Of a stretch of 50,186 nucleotides of DNA, positions 2,726-48,003 are shown one piece after another; position 1 is the stretch's first letter; every line of letters begins with the position of its first letter. A model generated the notes under the pieces. The model had not been told where the DNA came from and ran no database searches. It worked only from the letters and a program-made list of their open reading frames with translations. The position numbers and the translations under genes were made by a program. The DNA is from Anaerolineae bacterium (GTDB lineage: Bacteria > Chloroflexota > Anaerolineae > Aggregatilineales > Phototrophicaceae): assembly GCA_030950085.1 (NCBI GenBank), contig JAUZRW010000180.1, positions 1-50,186 of the forward strand. The letters are read 5' to 3'.

Positions 2726-2820
2726 TAGTACTTGACCAATTTAATTCTTGAAGATTAGATTTGTATTTTTCGGGCGCAATGCCTTGCGCCCCTACATAAA
2801 ACTTTTTTGGTCGAGTACTA
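2726..2820. repeat. MITE-like 95-bp element with 14-bp inverted ends
   Basis: TAGTACTTGACCAA at 2726-2739 is matched by the inverted TTGGTCGAGTACTA at 2807-2820, 13 of 14 positions. Between them lies a strong hairpin: GGGCGCAA at 2772-2779, loop TGCC, TTGCGCCC at 2784-2791. This hairpin belongs to the GTAGGGGCG palindrome family seen elsewhere in the window. No coding capacity is visible. The right end overlaps the TAG stop codon of the S9 peptidase (2818-2820). The hairpin may also act as a terminator between the two convergent genes. Confidence 0.6.
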
Positions 2821-4923
2821 CGTTGACGCAGATTCAGTTTTTTGCAATTTCTCTGGTTGAATATAGGTATTGAACCAATTTATCATCTCACGTAAACGAC
2901 TCATGCGATGTTCTGGTTCACCACTGCGCGAGAGTTCATGTCCTTCGCGTGGATAGCGTATCAATTTAACAGGGGTATCAGTTGCGCGACGAATCCATGC
3001 AAAGAGTTGTTCACCATCGGCAATCGGCACACGAAAATCATTGTCGCTATGAATAATCAGTGTGGGTGTTTTGATATTGTGAGCATAGGCTAAGGGAGAA
3101 TGTTGCCAGTATTTGGCATAATCTTGCCATGGCTCAACATCAAATTCGGAACTCATCAAAATCGGCACATCACTCGTACCGTAAAAACTAGCAATGTTAT
3201 ACACGCCGCGTTGCGATACAGCACTCGCAAAGCGGTCGCTATTGCCGATTATCCACGCGGTCATATAACCGCCGAACGAACCGCCTGTGATTGCCATGCG
3301 CGTTTCATCGACAAAGCCTTTTTCGATGATAGCATCAACACCCGCCATGATATCTTCCATTGTGACAGTACCCCAATTGCTATGAATCGCTGCCAAATGC
3401 TCCTGACCATAGCCATCGCTACCACGCGGATTACAGAAAAAGACCACATAACCGGCTGCGGCGTGAGATTGCCATTCGTGCCACATTGCCCGATGACTAG
3501 CTGTCCACATGACATGCGGTCCCCCGTGAATATTGAGGGCGAGTGGGTATTTTTTATCCGCTTCAAAATTCGGCGGCAGAATATACCAACCCTGTAACTC
3601 TTGTCCATGAGGGTTTTTGAACCAGAAATCATGGGTTTCTAGTACCTGTACGTCATCCAGAAATTCAGTGTTGGCATGGGTCATTTGCTGCGCTTGACCA
3701 TCTGCTGCTTTGAAAAATAGTTCGTCTAAGCGGTTTGTTGTGCGCGAGACAAAAGCCACATCACCTGACTTGCTAAAATCAGCATCCCAGATAGATTGTT
3801 CATCGCTAACAACCGTTGTGAAGTTTTTCGTTTTGGGGTCAATCTTATGAATTTCGACTCGTCCTGTTGTTAGTATCGTCGCCATAATCGTCCCATCGTC
3901 TAGCCAATCAAAATCGGCAGGTGGGCGACTCAGTTCCAGATTCAAATCGACAAAATCGCCGCTTCCTTCTAATGGAACAATTGTCAGGCGCGTTAGGGCA
4001 TCGGTTTGTCCGCGTGGTGAGCGAACGCAAAGTAGCCAATCGCCATCATAAGACGGCACTGCCCCGTAATAGCTAAAATCATCATCTTTGATACGGCGTT
4101 CGACACCGCTATCGACTTCAATCAGATAGATATTGCTATATTGCCAACTTTCATCAGCTTCGGGATTCCATGAGCGTGTCGTGACAATGTGCCGCCCAGA
4201 TTTCGACCACTGCGGCGCATCATAGTCAGCATCTGCATTTGTCAGGCGACGCGGTTTTGCCTCATCTTCTTCGAGACCTTCCGCTGTGGCTATCAGGTAA
4301 ATTTGGCTGTGGCGGTCATCCATAAACGATGTTCCCGTCCGATAAGGGATGCGCTCAATTGTGCGGGGGTCAAAGCGATTTTTCTCATCTTCGGCTTTAC
4401 GCTCTTTACGATGCTTACCGTCTAGTTCATCTGTAGGCGCTTCTGATTCTTCATCACTATCTTCTTCTGCACGCTCGGCAGCATTCATGCGCGATAGATA
4501 AGCAATTTGTTTGCCATTCGGCGACCATGCCGGAGCAAATGCGCCATTATCATGACTCGTCAGGGCGCGAGGTTCACCGGGTCTAGTCATGGGCAAAATA
4601 TAAATTTGTGGTTTTTTATCCGCACGCGAGGAGACAAAGGCTAATTGTGAACTATCCGGCGACCAACACGGAGACGAATCTTTGCCACTGCGCGTAACTT
4701 GAATCGGCTCGCCACCGGAAGCAGAGACGATATAAATATTCGTATCATAACTTTTTTTCGTGGCGTTCGGGCTTCGCAAGACATAAGCAATCCACTGTCC
4801 ATCGGGGCTAATCTGTGGGTCTTCGACATATTTAATGTTGTTGATATCCTCAATTGTAATCAAACGTTTTTCATCGCTCACAGGGCAAGACCTTCCATCC
4901 ATTTGAATTTTTTTCATTGGCAT
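2818..4923 (-). CDS. S9 family peptidase (prolyl oligopeptidase / acylaminoacyl-peptidase type)
   Basis: This 701-residue protein has an N-terminal seven-bladed beta-propeller with TolB/PD40-like repeats (ISPDGQWIAYV, CWSPDSSQLAFVS, AWSPNGKQIAYLS), followed by an alpha/beta-hydrolase domain. The nucleophile Ser549 lies in GGSFGGYM. The acid is in HSDNDFRVP near residue 630, and the His is in REGHELS near 665. A Glu/Asp-rich insert lies at about 150-180. There is no signal peptide, so it is probably a cytoplasmic oligopeptidase. Two ATGs (4923 and 4917) are possible starts and neither has a Shine-Dalgarno. A TATAAT on the minus strand at 4950-4955 could be its -10 box. Its stop codon lies within the inverted end of the 2726-2820 element. 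Confidence 0.93.
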   Translation of the reverse strand: MPMKKIQMDGRSCPVSDEKRLITIEDINNIKYVEDPQISPDGQWIAYVLRSPNATKKSYDTNIYIVSASGGEPIQVTRSGKDSSPCWSPDSSQLAFVSSRADKKPQIYILPMTRPGEPRALTSHDNGAFAPAWSPNGKQIAYLSRMNAAERAEEDSDEESEAPTDELDGKHRKERKAEDEKNRFDPRTIERIPYRTGTSFMDDRHSQIYLIATAEGLEEDEAKPRRLTNADADYDAPQWSKSGRHIVTTRSWNPEADESWQYSNIYLIEVDSGVERRIKDDDFSYYGAVPSYDGDWLLCVRSPRGQTDALTRLTIVPLEGSGDFVDLNLELSRPPADFDWLDDGTIMATILTTGRVEIHKIDPKTKNFTTVVSDEQSIWDADFSKSGDVAFVSRTTNRLDELFFKAADGQAQQMTHANTEFLDDVQVLETHDFWFKNPHGQELQGWYILPPNFEADKKYPLALNIHGGPHVMWTASHRAMWHEWQSHAAAGYVVFFCNPRGSDGYGQEHLAAIHSNWGTVTMEDIMAGVDAIIEKGFVDETRMAITGGSFGGYMTAWIIGNSDRFASAVSQRGVYNIASFYGTSDVPILMSSEFDVEPWQDYAKYWQHSPLAYAHNIKTPTLIIHSDNDFRVPIADGEQLFAWIRRATDTPVKLIRYPREGHELSRSGEPEHRMSRLREMINWFNTYIQPEKLQKTESAST

Positions 4924-14777: not shown

Positions 14778-14872
14778 CTTTTAACGCAAAGAGGCAAAGG
14801 ATGAAAGTCGCAAAGAGAGGCTTTTGAACCCGTATCTTTGTGTTCTTTGTGCCTTAGTGGTTCAATCCTTTT
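14778..14872. repeat. Decayed copy of the 142-bp repeat family
   Basis: AACGCAAAGAGGCAAAGG at 14783-14800 and the opposing CTTTGTG...TTCAATCC half (to about 14872) match the two arms of the elements at 21561, 36197, 38733 and 44109. The outer inverted ends are no longer recognisable. It lies in the 221-base gap between the LysR gene and the TPR gene; I see nothing else there. Confidence 0.6.
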
Positions 14873-21560: not shown

Positions 21561-21702
21561 TGTAGAATCTGGAAAAAAACTTAGAAAAAAGATGAACCGC
21601 CAAAACGCCAAAACGCCAAGATTTCTATTCAAAATCTTTCTTTGCGCCTTTCACCCTTTGCATCTTTGCGTTACGCTTTTTCAAAAATTGCCGGACTCTA
21701 CA
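21561..21702. repeat. 142-bp MITE-like element (copy 2, inverted orientation)
   Basis: The ends TGTAGAATCTGG (21561-21572) and CCGGACTCTACA (21691-21702) are inverted repeats matching at 10 of 12 positions. Inside are the two arms typical of the family: a GATGAACCGCCAAAACGCC half and the opposing CCCTTTGCATCTTTGCGTTA half. Just before it, 21528-21553 carries TAGGGCTTACACTGAATGAC, resembling the left end of the separate element at 44273. The gap between the PduO and GT39 genes is otherwise empty. Confidence 0.65.
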
Positions 21703-21765: not shown

Positions 21766-23307
21766 ATGTCCTCTTTTTCCCAAAATAAATTAAAGCGCTT
21801 TTTCGGTTTAATAGTTGTAATTTATAGCGCTATGATATTCACGACCCTTGCCTTGCATCAGGCGCGGCGCTGGCATCCTGACGAAGCCTTTTATATGACG
21901 ATTGCTCGTAATGCGGCTATTCACGGCGATTGGATGCTAGTCAGTGAACCGTTGGATAAACCGCCGTTCAGCTACTATAGTAATGCACTTGCCCTCGTTT
22001 TTTTGGGGATTAAAAGCGATGAAAACGGTGTCTTATTTTTGGATGTTTATCAGGGCGAATTTGCTGGACGTATCCCCTCACTGTTGATGAGTGTCCTACT
22101 GGTTGCTGTGATTATAGCAATAGCAAAATCTGTTTGGCGTGATGATTGGCGCAGTGCTGCCATAGCAGGCGTATTCGCGGCACTATCGCCGTTGCGAATC
22201 GTTTTTGCAGCAACTGCCTTTACGGATATACCGATGTTACTCTTTGCTACGTTAGCACTATGGATGGCGCTTCGCGGCAAATGGGGCTGGTCGGGAATCT
22301 GGTTTATGATGTCACTGGCTGCCAAACCGCAGAGTATCTTTTATGCGCCAGTGCTTATTGGAATTGGCATTTTGCAAATGAGGCAATCTCGCAATTGTAA
22401 GCAGGGATTGATACGCTTCGCATTTGCTGTCGGGCTTGGGATAATCATATTATGGCTCTGGGATGCAATGCGCGTCAATATGGGGGCATCGAGTTTTTGG
22501 CAACTTGGGCAAGCCTATTACACCCCAACTCAAATCACAGCATTTGCCGATTATCCGAGACGGATAGGCGAATTATGGGCGACAGTGCAATATTTATTTG
22601 GACAAGGAATCATCACTACATTTTTCTTGATTGTGGCTGCCATCAACACGATTCGGCGGCGCAATGATTTGGGCTTACTTTTCTTAGCATGGTTACTCGG
22701 ATTTTTGATACTCCATATTGCCTTGACATTGAATCTGTTTGACCGCAATTTGTTGTTACTCTTGCCTGTCGCCTCTGTTTTAGTGGGGAGGGCATTTTCA
22801 ACGCCTAGTGCATCTACAAATATTTCTCAAAAAATACCGATTTACCAGTTTCGGGCGCAATGCCTTGCACCCCTACAGTCACCTCGCCACTTTTTCGTTT
22901 TTGTGATTCAAGGGGGGGGCGTATTGATTTGTGCTGTTTTCGGCTTTATTGCGGCGACAGGAGCATACAATATTGGAGGAGATGATGGGCGACATGATGG
23001 CATTGATGACGTGGCAAATTATCTCAATAGCAAGCCGATAGCCACTGTCATCTATGACCGATGGCTGGATTGGGAACTCGATTATTATATGGGTGAATGG
23101 ACAAATAAGCGCCGTGTTTACTATCCCACAGCCCAACAATTGGTCAATGGCGCACGGCAATTAGAAGAAAGTGGGACACGTTATTTCGTCGTACCCACTA
23201 TACAGAATGTGTCTGATTGGCTAAACGCATTATCATCATCTGGATTTGAAATCACAATCGACTACGAATCGTATCATTTTCGTATTTATGCGCTGCAACT
23301 GCCTTAA
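21766..23307 (+). CDS. GT39-family (ArnT/PMT-like) membrane glycosyltransferase
   Basis: This 513-residue polytopic membrane protein has about ten hydrophobic segments. The first extracytoplasmic loop has HPDEAFYM with the Asp-Glu pair expected for catalysis in the GT-C/GT39 superfamily, followed by EPLDKPPFSYY. Such enzymes transfer a sugar from a polyprenyl-phosphate donor to lipid or protein on the outer membrane face. The donor and acceptor are unknown. A 26-base palindromic repeat sits in frame at residues 363-371 (RAQCLAPLQ), between two membrane helices. Its last four bases overlap the convergent response regulator. Confidence 0.85.
   Translation: MSSFSQNKLKRFFGLIVVIYSAMIFTTLALHQARRWHPDEAFYMTIARNAAIHGDWMLVSEPLDKPPFSYYSNALALVFLGIKSDENGVLFLDVYQGEFAGRIPSLLMSVLLVAVIIAIAKSVWRDDWRSAAIAGVFAALSPLRIVFAATAFTDIPMLLFATLALWMALRGKWGWSGIWFMMSLAAKPQSIFYAPVLIGIGILQMRQSRNCKQGLIRFAFAVGLGIIILWLWDAMRVNMGASSFWQLGQAYYTPTQITAFADYPRRIGELWATVQYLFGQGIITTFFLIVAAINTIRRRNDLGLLFLAWLLGFLILHIALTLNLFDRNLLLLLPVASVLVGRAFSTPSASTNISQKIPIYQFRAQCLAPLQSPRHFFVFVIQGGGVLICAVFGFIAATGAYNIGGDDGRHDGIDDVANYLNSKPIATVIYDRWLDWELDYYMGEWTNKRRVYYPTAQQLVNGARQLEESGTRYFVVPTIQNVSDWLNALSSSGFEITIDYESYHFRIYALQLP
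22852..22877 (+). repeat. Palindromic repeat inside a coding sequence (B3)
   Basis: These 26 bases match the intergenic repeat at 2771-2796 in 25 of 26 positions. The reading frame passes through without a stop. They add RAQCLAPLQ to a loop after about residue 360 of the GT39 protein. Confidence 0.75.
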
Positions 23308-24888: not shown

Positions 24889-25206
24889 CTTTGATTTGGC
24901 TACAATGTGGGCGGCAGATGTTTTTTCAGAAGCGCCATTAAACTGTAAGGCGGCTGGGTTTTGTATCCCATGCCGCCGAACAAACAACGTTTAAGCAGAT
25001 TTTTAAGTCTTTGCCATATTAAATGTACCGCATCTAGTGGCAATTTACAAATCGAATTTCAGGGCAATTGCTACGAATGCTTAACGCGCCCTAATACCCG
25101 AAAATCCATAGTTTTCCGAAAAACACATTTCCTGAAACTATGGATTGTTGGATTCATAGATAATTGTCATCTTCTCATGAAAATGTGTGCTAAGAAGTTT
25201 GCAATC
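24889..25206. other. Gene-free gap with a 12-bp inverted repeat
   Basis: AATCCATAGTTT at 25103-25114 pairs perfectly with AAACTATGGATT at 25135-25146 around a 20-base loop. It lies between two convergent genes and may be a terminator or RNA-processing hairpin, although no T-run follows. A frame opening at 24961 has no recognisable product. Confidence 0.5.
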
Positions 25207-36196: not shown

Positions 36197-36340
36197 TGTG
36201 AAATGTCTGGCATAAAATAGTCTTTCATATCCTCTTCTTTGAACCGCAGAGACGCAAAGAACGCAGAGAAATTGTAGGAAATGGCTTTCACCCTTTGCCT
36301 CTTTGCGTTTAGGCATTTTATAAAATATATCGAAGGTTAC
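36197..36340. repeat. 142-bp MITE-like element (copy 3, inverted orientation)
   Basis: Ends TGTGAAATGTCTGG (36197-36210) and GAAGGTTAC (36332-36340) enclose GAACCGCAGAGACGCAAAGA and the opposing CCCTTTGCCTCTTTGCGTTT arm. Read in reverse, its right end matches the left end of the copy at 38733 over about 50 bases with few differences. Length is about 144. Confidence 0.65.
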
Positions 36341-38732: not shown

Positions 38733-38874
38733 GTAGCCTTCATTATTTTTGTATAAAATGCTTAACGCAAAGATGCAAAGAGTGGAAGGCGCAAAGAAAA
38801 TTTTGAACTTGAATCTCTGCTCTCTGCGTCCTCTGTGCTTCATCTTTTTTTCAAGTCATTGTCCAGACTCTACA
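38733..38874. repeat. 142-bp MITE-like element (copy 4)
   Basis: It starts with GTAGCCTTC at 38733 and ends with CCAGACTCTACA at 38863-38874, enclosing AACGCAAAGATGCAAAGAG (from 38764) and the opposing TCTCTGCGTCCTCTGTGCTT arm. It occupies most of the gap between groEL and the restriction enzyme gene. Confidence 0.68.
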
Positions 38875-41179: not shown

Positions 41180-41229
41180 GATTGTGATATTTAAGAAGTA
41201 GCTTTTGCGAACCTGTACTCGCTAACGGT

Positions 41230-41269
41230 GCAATTTTGTGTGAGGCGCGATGAAACCCCGAAAGGGGCT
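41230..41269. repeat. 40-base repeat with short hairpin (copy 1)
   Basis: GCAATTTTGTGTGAG is followed by a variable part and then GAAACCCCGAAAGGGGCT. It matches 46610-46649 at 36 of 40 positions. The hairpin CCCC-GAAA-GGGG abuts the stop codon of the GlcD-GlcF gene (41268-41270) and probably acts as a terminator. Confidence 0.6.
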
Positions 41270-44093
41270 ATTCCAGCAAATCGACAATGACTTCAAGCGG
41301 ATGTTTTGCGCGATAACCTGCATCGTGAATTTGAGCGCGGCATGATGTTCCTGTTGCGGCAATGGTCGCATTAGGGTTAGCCTCTATTGTCGGTAATAAG
41401 CGGTCATTGGCAATCTTCATCGAGACATCGTAATGTTCATAGCCGAAACTACCTGCCATGCCACAACAGCCGGAGTCAATCTCGCTGACCTGTGTTTGTG
41501 GGATAAAGCGCAGTAATTTCAGCGTGTCGGCTGTTCCCCATAATGCCTTTTGATGACAATGCCCATGCAGCATAATAGGTTCACTGCTTTTGCGCCAATT
41601 GAGCATGTTGTTTTCGAGTTTTTGCGCGAAAAATTGCTCCACCGTGAGGCAGCGTTGCGCGATTTGTACTGCGTCGGCTTGCTGTGTGGGTTCAACCAAT
41701 GTCAGATAATCATCGGTGAAAGCTGATAAGCAACTCGGCTCAATGAAAAGATAGGGAATATCGCCATTTTGTTGCGATAGTGCGCGGATATTCTCTTCTG
41801 CCATCTTTTTAGCATTATCCAGTAAACCTTTGCTGATTGCCGGACGACCACAACATCCTTGTTCGGGAAGGCGCATCACATTGACTTTGAGGCTAAGTTT
41901 CTCTGCTAAGGTCATCACAGCTTGCCCAATTTCGGGATGATTGAACTCCGTGAAGGTATCAATAATGAGTACCGCATCGGGATTGTCGTATTGTGCAAAT
42001 GGCATGACTTGTGAAAATCGCTTAGGGGCATAATTGGGCAGATTACGCTCAAACGAGATTCCGAATAGGCTGCTTAATCCCCATTTTCCTAGTGGATGAT
42101 TGAGCATCGTATTACTGAGGCGTGGCAATAATCCACCGATTTTGTTCATGCGATGAATATTGCCAAATAATTGTGCGCTGAGGGGGGTGCCATTTTCATC
42201 ATAATACAGCGCTAGAAATTCTGACTTGATACGCGCAACATCCACAGAAGAGGGACATTCTGTCTGACAGGCTTTGCATGACAAGCACAAGTCATAGATA
42301 GCTTTTAGGCTTTTATCGCCGATACCGCCTGATAATTTGCCTGAGATTGCGGCACGTAAGGCATTAGCACGTCCGCGAGTAGAATGTGCCTCATCATGAG
42401 TCGCCATATAAGACGGACACATTGTCCCTGTATCTTCTTTACGACAAACCCCTGCGCCATTGCACATTTCTATTGTGCCATTGAAGCCTTCATCGCGTGA
42501 CCAATCGTGGCGTGTTTGCAAGGGTATAACGGTATAATCGGGCGAATAGCGCAGCACAGTTCGGTCATCCATGCGCGGAACATTCACTACTTTACCGGGA
42601 TTCATGCGATTATCAGGGTCAAATAAACGTTTAACACCGGCAAAGGCAGACATCAATTGTGCGCCAAAGAGATGATGCGTAAATTCGCCACGGACAATGC
42701 CTTGACCATGCTCGCCTGTAATTGTGCCTTGATACTTCATCACCGTTTGAGTGACACGCTCGGCGATATTGCGATATTGTTGCAATCCCTTGAGCGACTT
42801 CAGGTTAATGAGTGGGCGCACATGCAAGCAGCCGGCACTCGCATGGGCATAAATCGCATATGTTGTGCCTTCATCAAAAATTATTTTCTCAATATCAGTA
42901 ATGTAATCTGCTAGATGTTCGACAGGTACGGCCGCATCTTCCACAAAAGAAATTGGTTTAGCCTCGCTGCGCTCACTCATCATCAAGCCCAAACCGGCTT
43001 TACGCACTGTCCAAACATCATTTTGCTGTGATGCACTACGCGCAATCGTGAGGGCGATATGGCGTTTGCTCTTATCAAGATAGGCTTCAAGGCGCTTGAT
43101 ATGTGCCTCTAAGTCAGCCGAAGAATCTCCCACAAATTCGACGAATAATAATGCCGCAGGGTCGCCTTCGACGAATGTTAGATATTGCTGATAGCCCTTT
43201 GCTGTACGGGTCTTATCTAGCAGAAATTTATCGGCGAGTTCAATTGCTGTCGGATTCAACTTAAGCAGTTTGGGAGTTTCTTCTAGTGAGGTTCGGATGG
43301 AATCGTAATGCACAACAGCGAGAATCTTCTCTTGGGCAGTCGGGCGCGATACGAGATTCAATACAGCGCGAACCACTGTTCCGAGTGTGCCTTCTGCCCC
43401 TGCAAAAAGCCAATTCAGGTTGACATTATCAGGGTCGATTTTGTTGAGAGCATAGCCAGCTACCGTGCGCCATGTTTTGGGATAGCGTGCCTCAATTTCC
43501 GCCTGATTGTTTCGCACAATCGCGGCAATATCTGAGCGAATACGATTCAGTGTCGGATGGTCTTCATCAAGCCAAACCAAGTCACCATCGGGCAAAACGA
43601 CTTGCAGCCGTTTAATATGGTCAGCCGTCATACCATAGCGGATGCTGTGCGCTCCGGTAGAATTGTTGCCGATAATGCCGCCTATGGTTGCCCGTTCTGC
43701 GCTGGCAGGGTCGGGTCCAAACATCAAACCGAGTGTTTGCAAACTCTGGTTGAGATGACCTAGCACGAGTCCGGCTTCAACATCGACTGTTTTTTCTTCG
43801 GCATTGATACTGCGAACACGGCGCATGTGACGGCTTAAGTCGATGATAACCGCTTGACCAATCGCTTGTCCGGCGAGGCTACTGCCCCCCCCACGCGGCA
43901 AAATGGGCGTGTGATAGCGTTTCGTAATCTGATGAATAGCGATTACATCGTCGATATGGCGCGGGAAAGTGACACCAATAGGCATAATCTGGTAATTGCT
44001 GGCATCGGTGCTATAGAGAATGCGCGTCATTTCATCAAACTTGACATTTTCCGTACCAAGTATTTGGGTTAAATCTTGTAGCAAGTTATTCAT
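41268..44093 (-). CDS. GlcD-GlcF-like FAD/iron-sulfur oxidoreductase fusion
   Basis: This 941-residue protein has an N-terminal FAD-binding (PCMH/FAD_binding_4) part with PILPRGGGSSLAGQA and IGGIIGNNSTG, then the FAD-oxidase C domain. A ferredoxin-like segment follows, with Cys clusters CNGAGVCRKEDTGTMCPSY and CLSCKACQTECPSSVDV. Two C-terminal CCG domains (PEQGCCGRPAI and DSGCCGMAGSFGYE) complete it. Relatives oxidise D-lactate, glycolate or other 2-hydroxy acids and pass electrons to the quinone pool. No Shine-Dalgarno is seen before the ATG. In many bacteria these two halves are separate genes. Confidence 0.95.
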   Translation of the reverse strand: MNNLLQDLTQILGTENVKFDEMTRILYSTDASNYQIMPIGVTFPRHIDDVIAIHQITKRYHTPILPRGGGSSLAGQAIGQAVIIDLSRHMRRVRSINAEEKTVDVEAGLVLGHLNQSLQTLGLMFGPDPASAERATIGGIIGNNSTGAHSIRYGMTADHIKRLQVVLPDGDLVWLDEDHPTLNRIRSDIAAIVRNNQAEIEARYPKTWRTVAGYALNKIDPDNVNLNWLFAGAEGTLGTVVRAVLNLVSRPTAQEKILAVVHYDSIRTSLEETPKLLKLNPTAIELADKFLLDKTRTAKGYQQYLTFVEGDPAALLFVEFVGDSSADLEAHIKRLEAYLDKSKRHIALTIARSASQQNDVWTVRKAGLGLMMSERSEAKPISFVEDAAVPVEHLADYITDIEKIIFDEGTTYAIYAHASAGCLHVRPLINLKSLKGLQQYRNIAERVTQTVMKYQGTITGEHGQGIVRGEFTHHLFGAQLMSAFAGVKRLFDPDNRMNPGKVVNVPRMDDRTVLRYSPDYTVIPLQTRHDWSRDEGFNGTIEMCNGAGVCRKEDTGTMCPSYMATHDEAHSTRGRANALRAAISGKLSGGIGDKSLKAIYDLCLSCKACQTECPSSVDVARIKSEFLALYYDENGTPLSAQLFGNIHRMNKIGGLLPRLSNTMLNHPLGKWGLSSLFGISFERNLPNYAPKRFSQVMPFAQYDNPDAVLIIDTFTEFNHPEIGQAVMTLAEKLSLKVNVMRLPEQGCCGRPAISKGLLDNAKKMAEENIRALSQQNGDIPYLFIEPSCLSAFTDDYLTLVEPTQQADAVQIAQRCLTVEQFFAQKLENNMLNWRKSSEPIMLHGHCHQKALWGTADTLKLLRFIPQTQVSEIDSGCCGMAGSFGYEHYDVSMKIANDRLLPTIEANPNATIAATGTSCRAQIHDAGYRAKHPLEVIVDLLE

Positions 44094-44108
44094 GATATTT
44101 TTCTATGA

Positions 44109-44250
44109 GTGACCTTTAGGATGTTTTTAGAAAATGCTTAACGCAAAGATGCAAAGGGTGAAAGGCGCAAAGAAAAAATCTTGAACTGGATCCTCTGTGT
44201 CCTTTGTGTCTCTGTGGTTCATCTTTTTGTAGTTTTTTGCCTGATGTTAC
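44109..44250. repeat. 142-bp MITE-like element (copy 5)
   Basis: It begins GTGACCTTTAGG and ends CCTGATGTTAC (44240-44250), enclosing AACGCAAAGATGCAAAGGG (from 44140) and the opposing CTTTGTGTCTCTGTGGTTCA arm. Its length by hand count is the same as that of copies 2 and 4. Confidence 0.68.
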
Positions 44251-44272: not shown

Positions 44273-44356
44273 TAGGACTTACGCAGTTGACTGTTATTTT
44301 CGGGCGCACACGCGGGTACGCCCCTACAATTTTTGTACGCAAGTGCGTAACTTCTA
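44273..44356. repeat. 84-bp element with 17-bp inverted ends (TAGGACTTACGCA type)
   Basis: TAGGACTTACGCAGTTG (44273-44289) and CAAGTGCGTAACTTCTA (44340-44356) are inverted, 14 of 17 positions. Between them lies a GTAGGGGCG-family palindrome (44301-44328). Left-end sequence reappears near 21528-21553. Confidence 0.6.
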
Positions 44357-46560: not shown

Positions 46561-46609
46561 CTTGTTTAACAAACTATCTAAGATAACACTCTAACACTTG
46601 CCTCACGTT

Positions 46610-46654
46610 GCAATTTTGTGTGAGACACGGCGAAACCCCGAAAGGGGCTTTTTT
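46610..46654 (+). terminator. Terminator carrying the 40-base repeat (copy 2)
   Basis: The CCCC-GAAA-GGGG hairpin (46636-46647) followed by C and six T (46649-46654) lies about 75 bases after the RfaE2-like gene. The 40 bases leading to it match the copy at 41230. Confidence 0.7.
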
Positions 46655-47933: not shown

Positions 47934-48003
47934 TGTAGGGGCGAAGCCGTGTGTTCGCCCGTTACCTAATTCTCGCGAGATGACCCATGGGTCATCCCCT
48001 ACA
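47934..48003. repeat. 70-bp composite palindromic element (B6)
   Basis: TGTAGGGG at 47934-47941 and CCCCTACA at 47996-48003 face each other. Inside are the hairpin GGGCGAA/TTCGCCC and the perfect 18-base palindrome GATGACCCATGGGTCATC. It sits in the gap between the binding-protein and permease genes, where it could cut transcription or stabilise the upstream message. The rest of the 350-base gap (47832-48181) shows nothing else. Confidence 0.6.

Follow-up and report, generated by a model that had tools for sequence, protein, structure and literature searches.

A mobile GTAG-tagged palindrome, probably a REP, read in frame within a glycosyltransferase gene of an Anaerolineae bacterium

Within the window considered here (the whole stretch of DNA that was analysed, 50,186 nucleotides from an Anaerolineae bacterium), a short repeated hairpin is translated as part of a glycosyltransferase. 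This 24–28-bp element is probably a GTAG-tagged REP, one of several sister families presumably moved by transposases, and a solo copy of it probably entered, in phase, a loop of variable length in a GT-C glycosyltransferase. Elements of this type are short palindromes with the tetranucleotide GTAG at the foot, thought to move as single-stranded DNA via REP-associated tyrosine transposases (RAYTs). An in-frame GTAG REP in a glycosyltransferase is a known kind of event, as intragenic REPs have already been published; the part that may surprise the specialist is the recurrence of in-frame REPs in the linkers of RAYT genes.

The hairpin in the glycosyltransferase gene

A GT-C / PMT_2 glycosyltransferase gene of 513 amino acids (PF13231, E 1.1e-5) occupies positions 21766–23307 of the plus strand, and carries at 22849–22877 (TTTCGGGCGCAATGCCTTGCACCCCTACA) a solo hairpin with its GTAG tail on the minus strand, where the element reads GTAG followed by GGGTGCAAGGCATTGCGCCC. 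The tetranucleotide stands at one foot of the hairpin (TGTAGGGG, minus strand), as it does in the genome-wide alignment. A second, intergenic copy at 2768–2796 (minus strand) is identical at 28 of 29 bases, a match found in none of 100 shuffles. The preliminary description had paired 22852–22877 with 2771–2796 at 25 of 26 bases, a pairing that holds and extends to the longer interval. Its label of 'intergenic repeat' for the second copy is right as to location, but the copy is not bare, sitting instead in a MITE of ~90 bp (about 2729–2817), and its view of the repeat was understated, with 193 copies in the genome as a whole. Read in phase within the ORF at 21766–23307, the codons TTT CGG GCG CAA TGC CTT GCA CCC CTA CAG give FRAQCLAPLQ (residues 362–371), and this copy departs from the consensus only by a synonymous change of GCG to GCA. 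The earlier statement that RAQCLAPLQ is encoded without a break of frame is thus confirmed, with 22849–22877 in phase inside an intact ORF for a protein of 513 residues.

The repeat was said to occupy a loop, and it does lie in one, which varies in length and is flanked by hydrophobic segments at residues 329–347 and 377–395. Homologues of the glycosyltransferase were matched in 58 of 61 related genomes, many of them across both halves of the protein; the best of them, from the same genome family, are 42% identical, a first contig scan for close homologues found none, and the genome itself holds a single match to the protein, that is, no paralogue. In the alignment, the linker from the DR(Y/N)LL motif to the GID motif spans 86 residues in this protein, against 65 in its two closest homologues, L040 and L041, and 47–81 in the others, and conservation resumes downstream of the repeat (e.g. 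47% identity over residues 391–511). Because linker length varies and conservation returns beyond the repeat, the loop is a variable one in an intact-looking protein, in which translation of FRAQCLAPLQ would be tolerated and the enzyme presumably remains functional. The proposal that alignment would reveal an insertion at about residues 360–372 fared less simply: the loop is indeed ~21 residues longer than in the nearest homologues, but this excess is greater than the 8–10 codons of the hairpin, and other homologues vary over 47–81 residues. Strict insertion is inferred as the likely origin of the hairpin; no empty-site allele was found among the homologues, the nearest of which is 42% identical.

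The repeat family and its genomic setting

Across this genome (5.09 Mb in 266 contigs), the 24-mer core recurs in 193 copies at up to three mismatches, against none for a reversed-pattern control. The consensus on the minus strand is GTAG then GGGCGCAAGGCATTGCGCCC, a stem-loop with a stem of 8 bp and a loop of 4 nt, in keeping with the 20–40 bp of GTAG-tagged REPs, folding at -10.8 kcal/mol (z -4.1); in the glycosyltransferase copy the stem contains a single mismatch. The hairpin element is open in five of its six frames. Sister families share the ends GTAGGGGCG...CGCCC around different centres, and the pattern GTAGGGGCG N{2,18} CGCCC gives 275 matches over both strands, some counted twice, with a control of 0. 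Two such related GTAG REPs lie in the window, at 44302–44327 on the minus strand (GTAGGGGCGTACCCGCGTGTGCGCCC) and at 47935–47960 on the plus strand (GTAGGGGCGAAGCCGTGTGTTCGCCC).

Context was read, with flanks, at 99 distinct sites out of the 193 copies. Full copies of a ~90-bp element, MITE-A, account for 53 of these and partial copies for 16 (69/99 together), with two other contexts, type B (15) and type C (4), making up a further 19 and the remaining 11 falling elsewhere. Terminal inverted repeats TACTTGACCAA/TTGGTCGAGTA characterise MITE-A, and of 48 full copies that were aligned, 39 show a 4-bp NTAN target duplication, against a mean of 7.3 and a maximum of 16 under permutation. The copy that holds the 2768–2796 hairpin, placed at about 2729–2817 by family alignment and running from TACTTGACCAA to TTGGTCGAGTA, has ATAG/CTAC borders and no exact duplication. 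Most copies of the hairpin in this genome now also ride inside a TIR-type MITE, and because these MITEs have DDE-type target duplications, recent spread may have been by MITE transposition. Hairpin-less copies of MITE-A, sought in order to define a nested insertion, numbered 0 of 21.

The glycosyltransferase copy is solo, with neither MITE flanks, terminal inverted repeats nor a target duplication; other solo copies occur at L087, L022, L070 and L117. It is also the only one of the 99 sites where the frame stays open for 40 codons or more in each direction (364 and 151), the other 98 not lying deep in a long open frame, so that the family is dispersed mainly between genes, intragenic copies are strongly depleted and the glycosyltransferase site is the exception. 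A search for further in-frame copies in the genome, as had been suggested, therefore revealed no general habit: it yielded this one deep site in 99, plus one sister REP in frame in a RAYT gene.

Several other repeats were observed in the window. The TAG stop codon of a minus-strand prolyl oligopeptidase gene (2818–4923) is supplied by CTAC, the MITE's right border (2818–2821). A second dispersed family (TTAACGCAAAGATGCAAAGGGTGAAAGGCGCAAAGAAA ...) occurs in both orientations at 14781–14864, 21586–21687, 36285–36324, 38737–38813 and 44108–44228, and a third repeat (CAATTTTGTGTGAGGCGCGATGAAACCCCGAAAGGGGC), adjoining gene ends and including a terminator-like hairpin, at 41222–41272 and 46602–46652, as well as in L083 and L259. 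An inverted repeat at 25098–25151 is similar to the outer part of context B, with the hairpin absent.

RAYT-like genes and in-frame copies elsewhere

A search of the genome with PF01797 (Y1_Tnp) returned only a degenerate domain in which a clear HUH motif was absent. The corresponding reading, that the genome has no RAYT, proved false: the NF047646 profile picks up two RAYT-like genes at 64.8 and 56.7 bits, under the curated cut-off of 80, with HUH motifs MPNHFH and MPNHVH and Tyr regions NYYERIIR and NYWERIIR. One, on the minus strand of contig C29 (10792–11367, equivalent to L258:1465–2040), lies between inverted copies of GTAGGGGCGCATGGCAATGCGCCC in a REPtron architecture, the flanking REP being a sister whose centre differs from that of the glycosyltransferase hairpin. 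In the other, on contig C13 (L259:1099–1719), the linker that follows the HUH strand includes GTAGGGGCGCAGCGCGCTACGCCCCTAC, read in frame as VGAQRATPL. Exact copies of the glycosyltransferase hairpin do not border either gene on both sides. A RAYT, predicted to act on single-stranded GTAGGGGCGCAAGGCATTGCGCCC, presumably moved the copy that came to lie, in phase, in the variable-length glycosyltransferase loop. Of 298 genomes of the class, 118 have RAYT homologues; in other REP-bearing genomes, PF01797 matches were mostly ordinary IS200-type genes with no REPs nearby.

The linker from the HUH motif to the following FK helix was scanned at 31 RAYT loci (the best matches to one query, L262–L291 among them), which are mutually related and not independent trials. 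An exact GTAG-tagged palindrome was present at 12 loci by scan and also in L287 and L289, giving 14 of 31; with two mismatches allowed, the scan gave 17 and the total rose to 19 of 31 linkers with an in-frame GTAG palindrome, compared with 3 of 6200 codon-shuffled linkers. At least nine different stems were seen, varying from genome to genome, with both arms changed together and most reading VGA...AP. Among four genomes sampled, three (G042, G193 and G073) had the internal stem repeated within 20 kb of surrounding sequence at the RAYT but in none of four other stretches, and the fourth (G105) had them in the RAYT-bearing stretch and none in three others. We suggest, tentatively, that RAYT genes in this class carry a linker REP after the HUH motif, such that one gene would encode an enzyme and also, as part of its coding sequence and mRNA, the hairpin that serves that enzyme as substrate, and that the same machinery could seed in-frame peptides (VGAQGIAP, RAQCLAPL) elsewhere. 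The linker REP may serve in autoregulation or may mark a tolerant hot spot for insertion. The open literature searched gave no earlier account of a REP within a RAYT gene, which is weak evidence of novelty.

The exact 24-mer is widely scattered: among the matches listed it occurs in Cyanobacteria (Nostoc, Brasilonema and Scytonema), Chloroflexota, Acidobacteria, Geobacter, Calditrichota and Gallionella, and the exact motif is present in 7 of 199 genomes of the same class. As GTAGGGGCGCAAKGCMTTGCGCCC had no copy in the viral contigs searched, phages are not an evident carrier; a search of plasmids gave one Nostoc plasmid only. In three of four in-frame cases the hairpin reads VGAQGIAP, and in the fourth the same codon register is used on the opposite strand. 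The three comprise an alpha-2-macroglobulin lipoprotein with A2M, MG2, bMG3 and Big_5 domains (L140), a XerC-like tyrosine recombinase (L173; Phage_integrase, 2.2e-35) and, from Calditrichota, a protein without a Pfam match whose tail is rich in Pro and Glu (L171). Homologues of the alpha-2-macroglobulin, 38–62% identical over the region, are mostly 4–5 residues shorter at the place of the hairpin. A paralogue of the XerC gene with 92% DNA identity (L225, in G133 C331) was considered as an empty site and rejected: at the REP site, between GAGGAACG and CTGTTCCTC, it has another segment of equal length that is itself a strong in-frame hairpin, so that the pair shows one segment replaced by another and not a clean empty site. 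Long ORFs across copies in GC-rich genomes (L132, L133, L159 and L163) were discounted, being probably spurious. Tandem hairpin arrays, with GAQCLDPQRHRRP repeated in one open frame, were observed in L187 (G069) and L163, from a Thermoflexia genome.

Several other explanations of the glycosyltransferase copy must be weighed against a solo REP insertion. It might be the eroded remnant of a whole MITE-A insertion made by a DDE transposase, as would suit an element that sits in MITE-A at 69 of 99 sites, with 4-bp target duplications, and a loop excess of about 63 nt (~21 residues) that is larger than a REP; we regard this as unlikely, given that MITE flanks have left no trace beside a nearly perfect 29-bp match, that none of the 21 MITE-A copies examined lacked the hairpin and that further solo copies are known. 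Somewhat less probable still is a coding-adapted element selected for translation in the manner of Rickettsia palindromic elements. The open state of five of six frames and the several proteins with in-frame copies in a shared register are what one might expect of such an element, but a position deep within a gene was seen at just 1 of the 99 sites read in this genome, and the tail is GTAG rather than CGTC (PMC3733652).

An assembly chimera, joining two unrelated gene pieces at the repeat, comes to mind with any high-copy repeat in a draft of 266 contigs; it is very improbable here, as a common set of homologues aligns, in one frame, to both sides, and the genome, lacking a glycosyltransferase paralogue, offers one match only to the protein. 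Chance or convergence of coding sequence is refuted by the counts (no match in 100 shuffles; 193 copies versus 0 in the control) and deserves next to no credence. Insertion of a solo GTAG-tagged REP is therefore the reading we prefer. Its wider significance is that a mobile hairpin of 24–28 bp, identical in many phyla among the matches listed, can turn into protein sequence. RAYT genes with a REP in their own coding sequence also constitute a testable system: if the RAYT binds or cuts the copy inside its gene, a direct test of whether REP spread limits itself comes within reach.

Comparison with known mobile palindromes

The small dispersed repeats (SDR) of Nostoc, said to have been described by Elhai and colleagues in 2008, are reportedly hairpins of 21–27 nt nested in mini-transposons. 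Their reported size and nesting are very similar to those of the present repeat, whose exact 24-mer occurs in Nostoc, Brasilonema and Scytonema. MITEs with TA-type targets are IS630-like, and MITE-A, with its terminal inverted repeats and NTAN target duplications, is of similar form, whereas the glycosyltransferase copy is without terminal repeats.

The likeness to Rickettsia palindromic elements (RPEs) drawn in the preliminary description survives as an analogy, in that a palindromic repeat lies in frame inside an otherwise normal protein, but not as membership: RPEs of R. conorii end in CGTC (PMC3733652), RPE-1 is longer and RPEs are common in genes, whereas here the tail is GTAG and frequent in-frame copies in the same genome were not found (1/99 intragenic, plus the sister REP in the RAYT gene).

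The closest parallel is with REPtrons, the pairing of GTAG REPs with RAYT/TnpAREP genes. Di Nocera et al. 2013 (PMC3733652) gave an account of GTAG-tagged REPs, RAYTs and intragenic REPs, with the GTAG-15 family of Anabaena variabilis reported as associated with longer palindromic sequences. In vitro work on other members has demonstrated that TnpAREP recognises GTAG together with a palindrome (PMC8266576). Shared features are the GTAG foot, a 20-nt stem-loop, high copy number, and a mostly intergenic distribution with occasional intragenic copies; a RAYT-like gene that scores below the profile cut-off also lies between inverted copies of a sister REP. The assignment is to GTAG REPs as a kind, of which 24 families have been published. 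The present system differs in that most copies are nested in TIR MITEs, in that its RAYTs are divergent and their linker often includes an in-frame REP, and in that an identical 24-mer recurs, among the matches listed, in many phyla.
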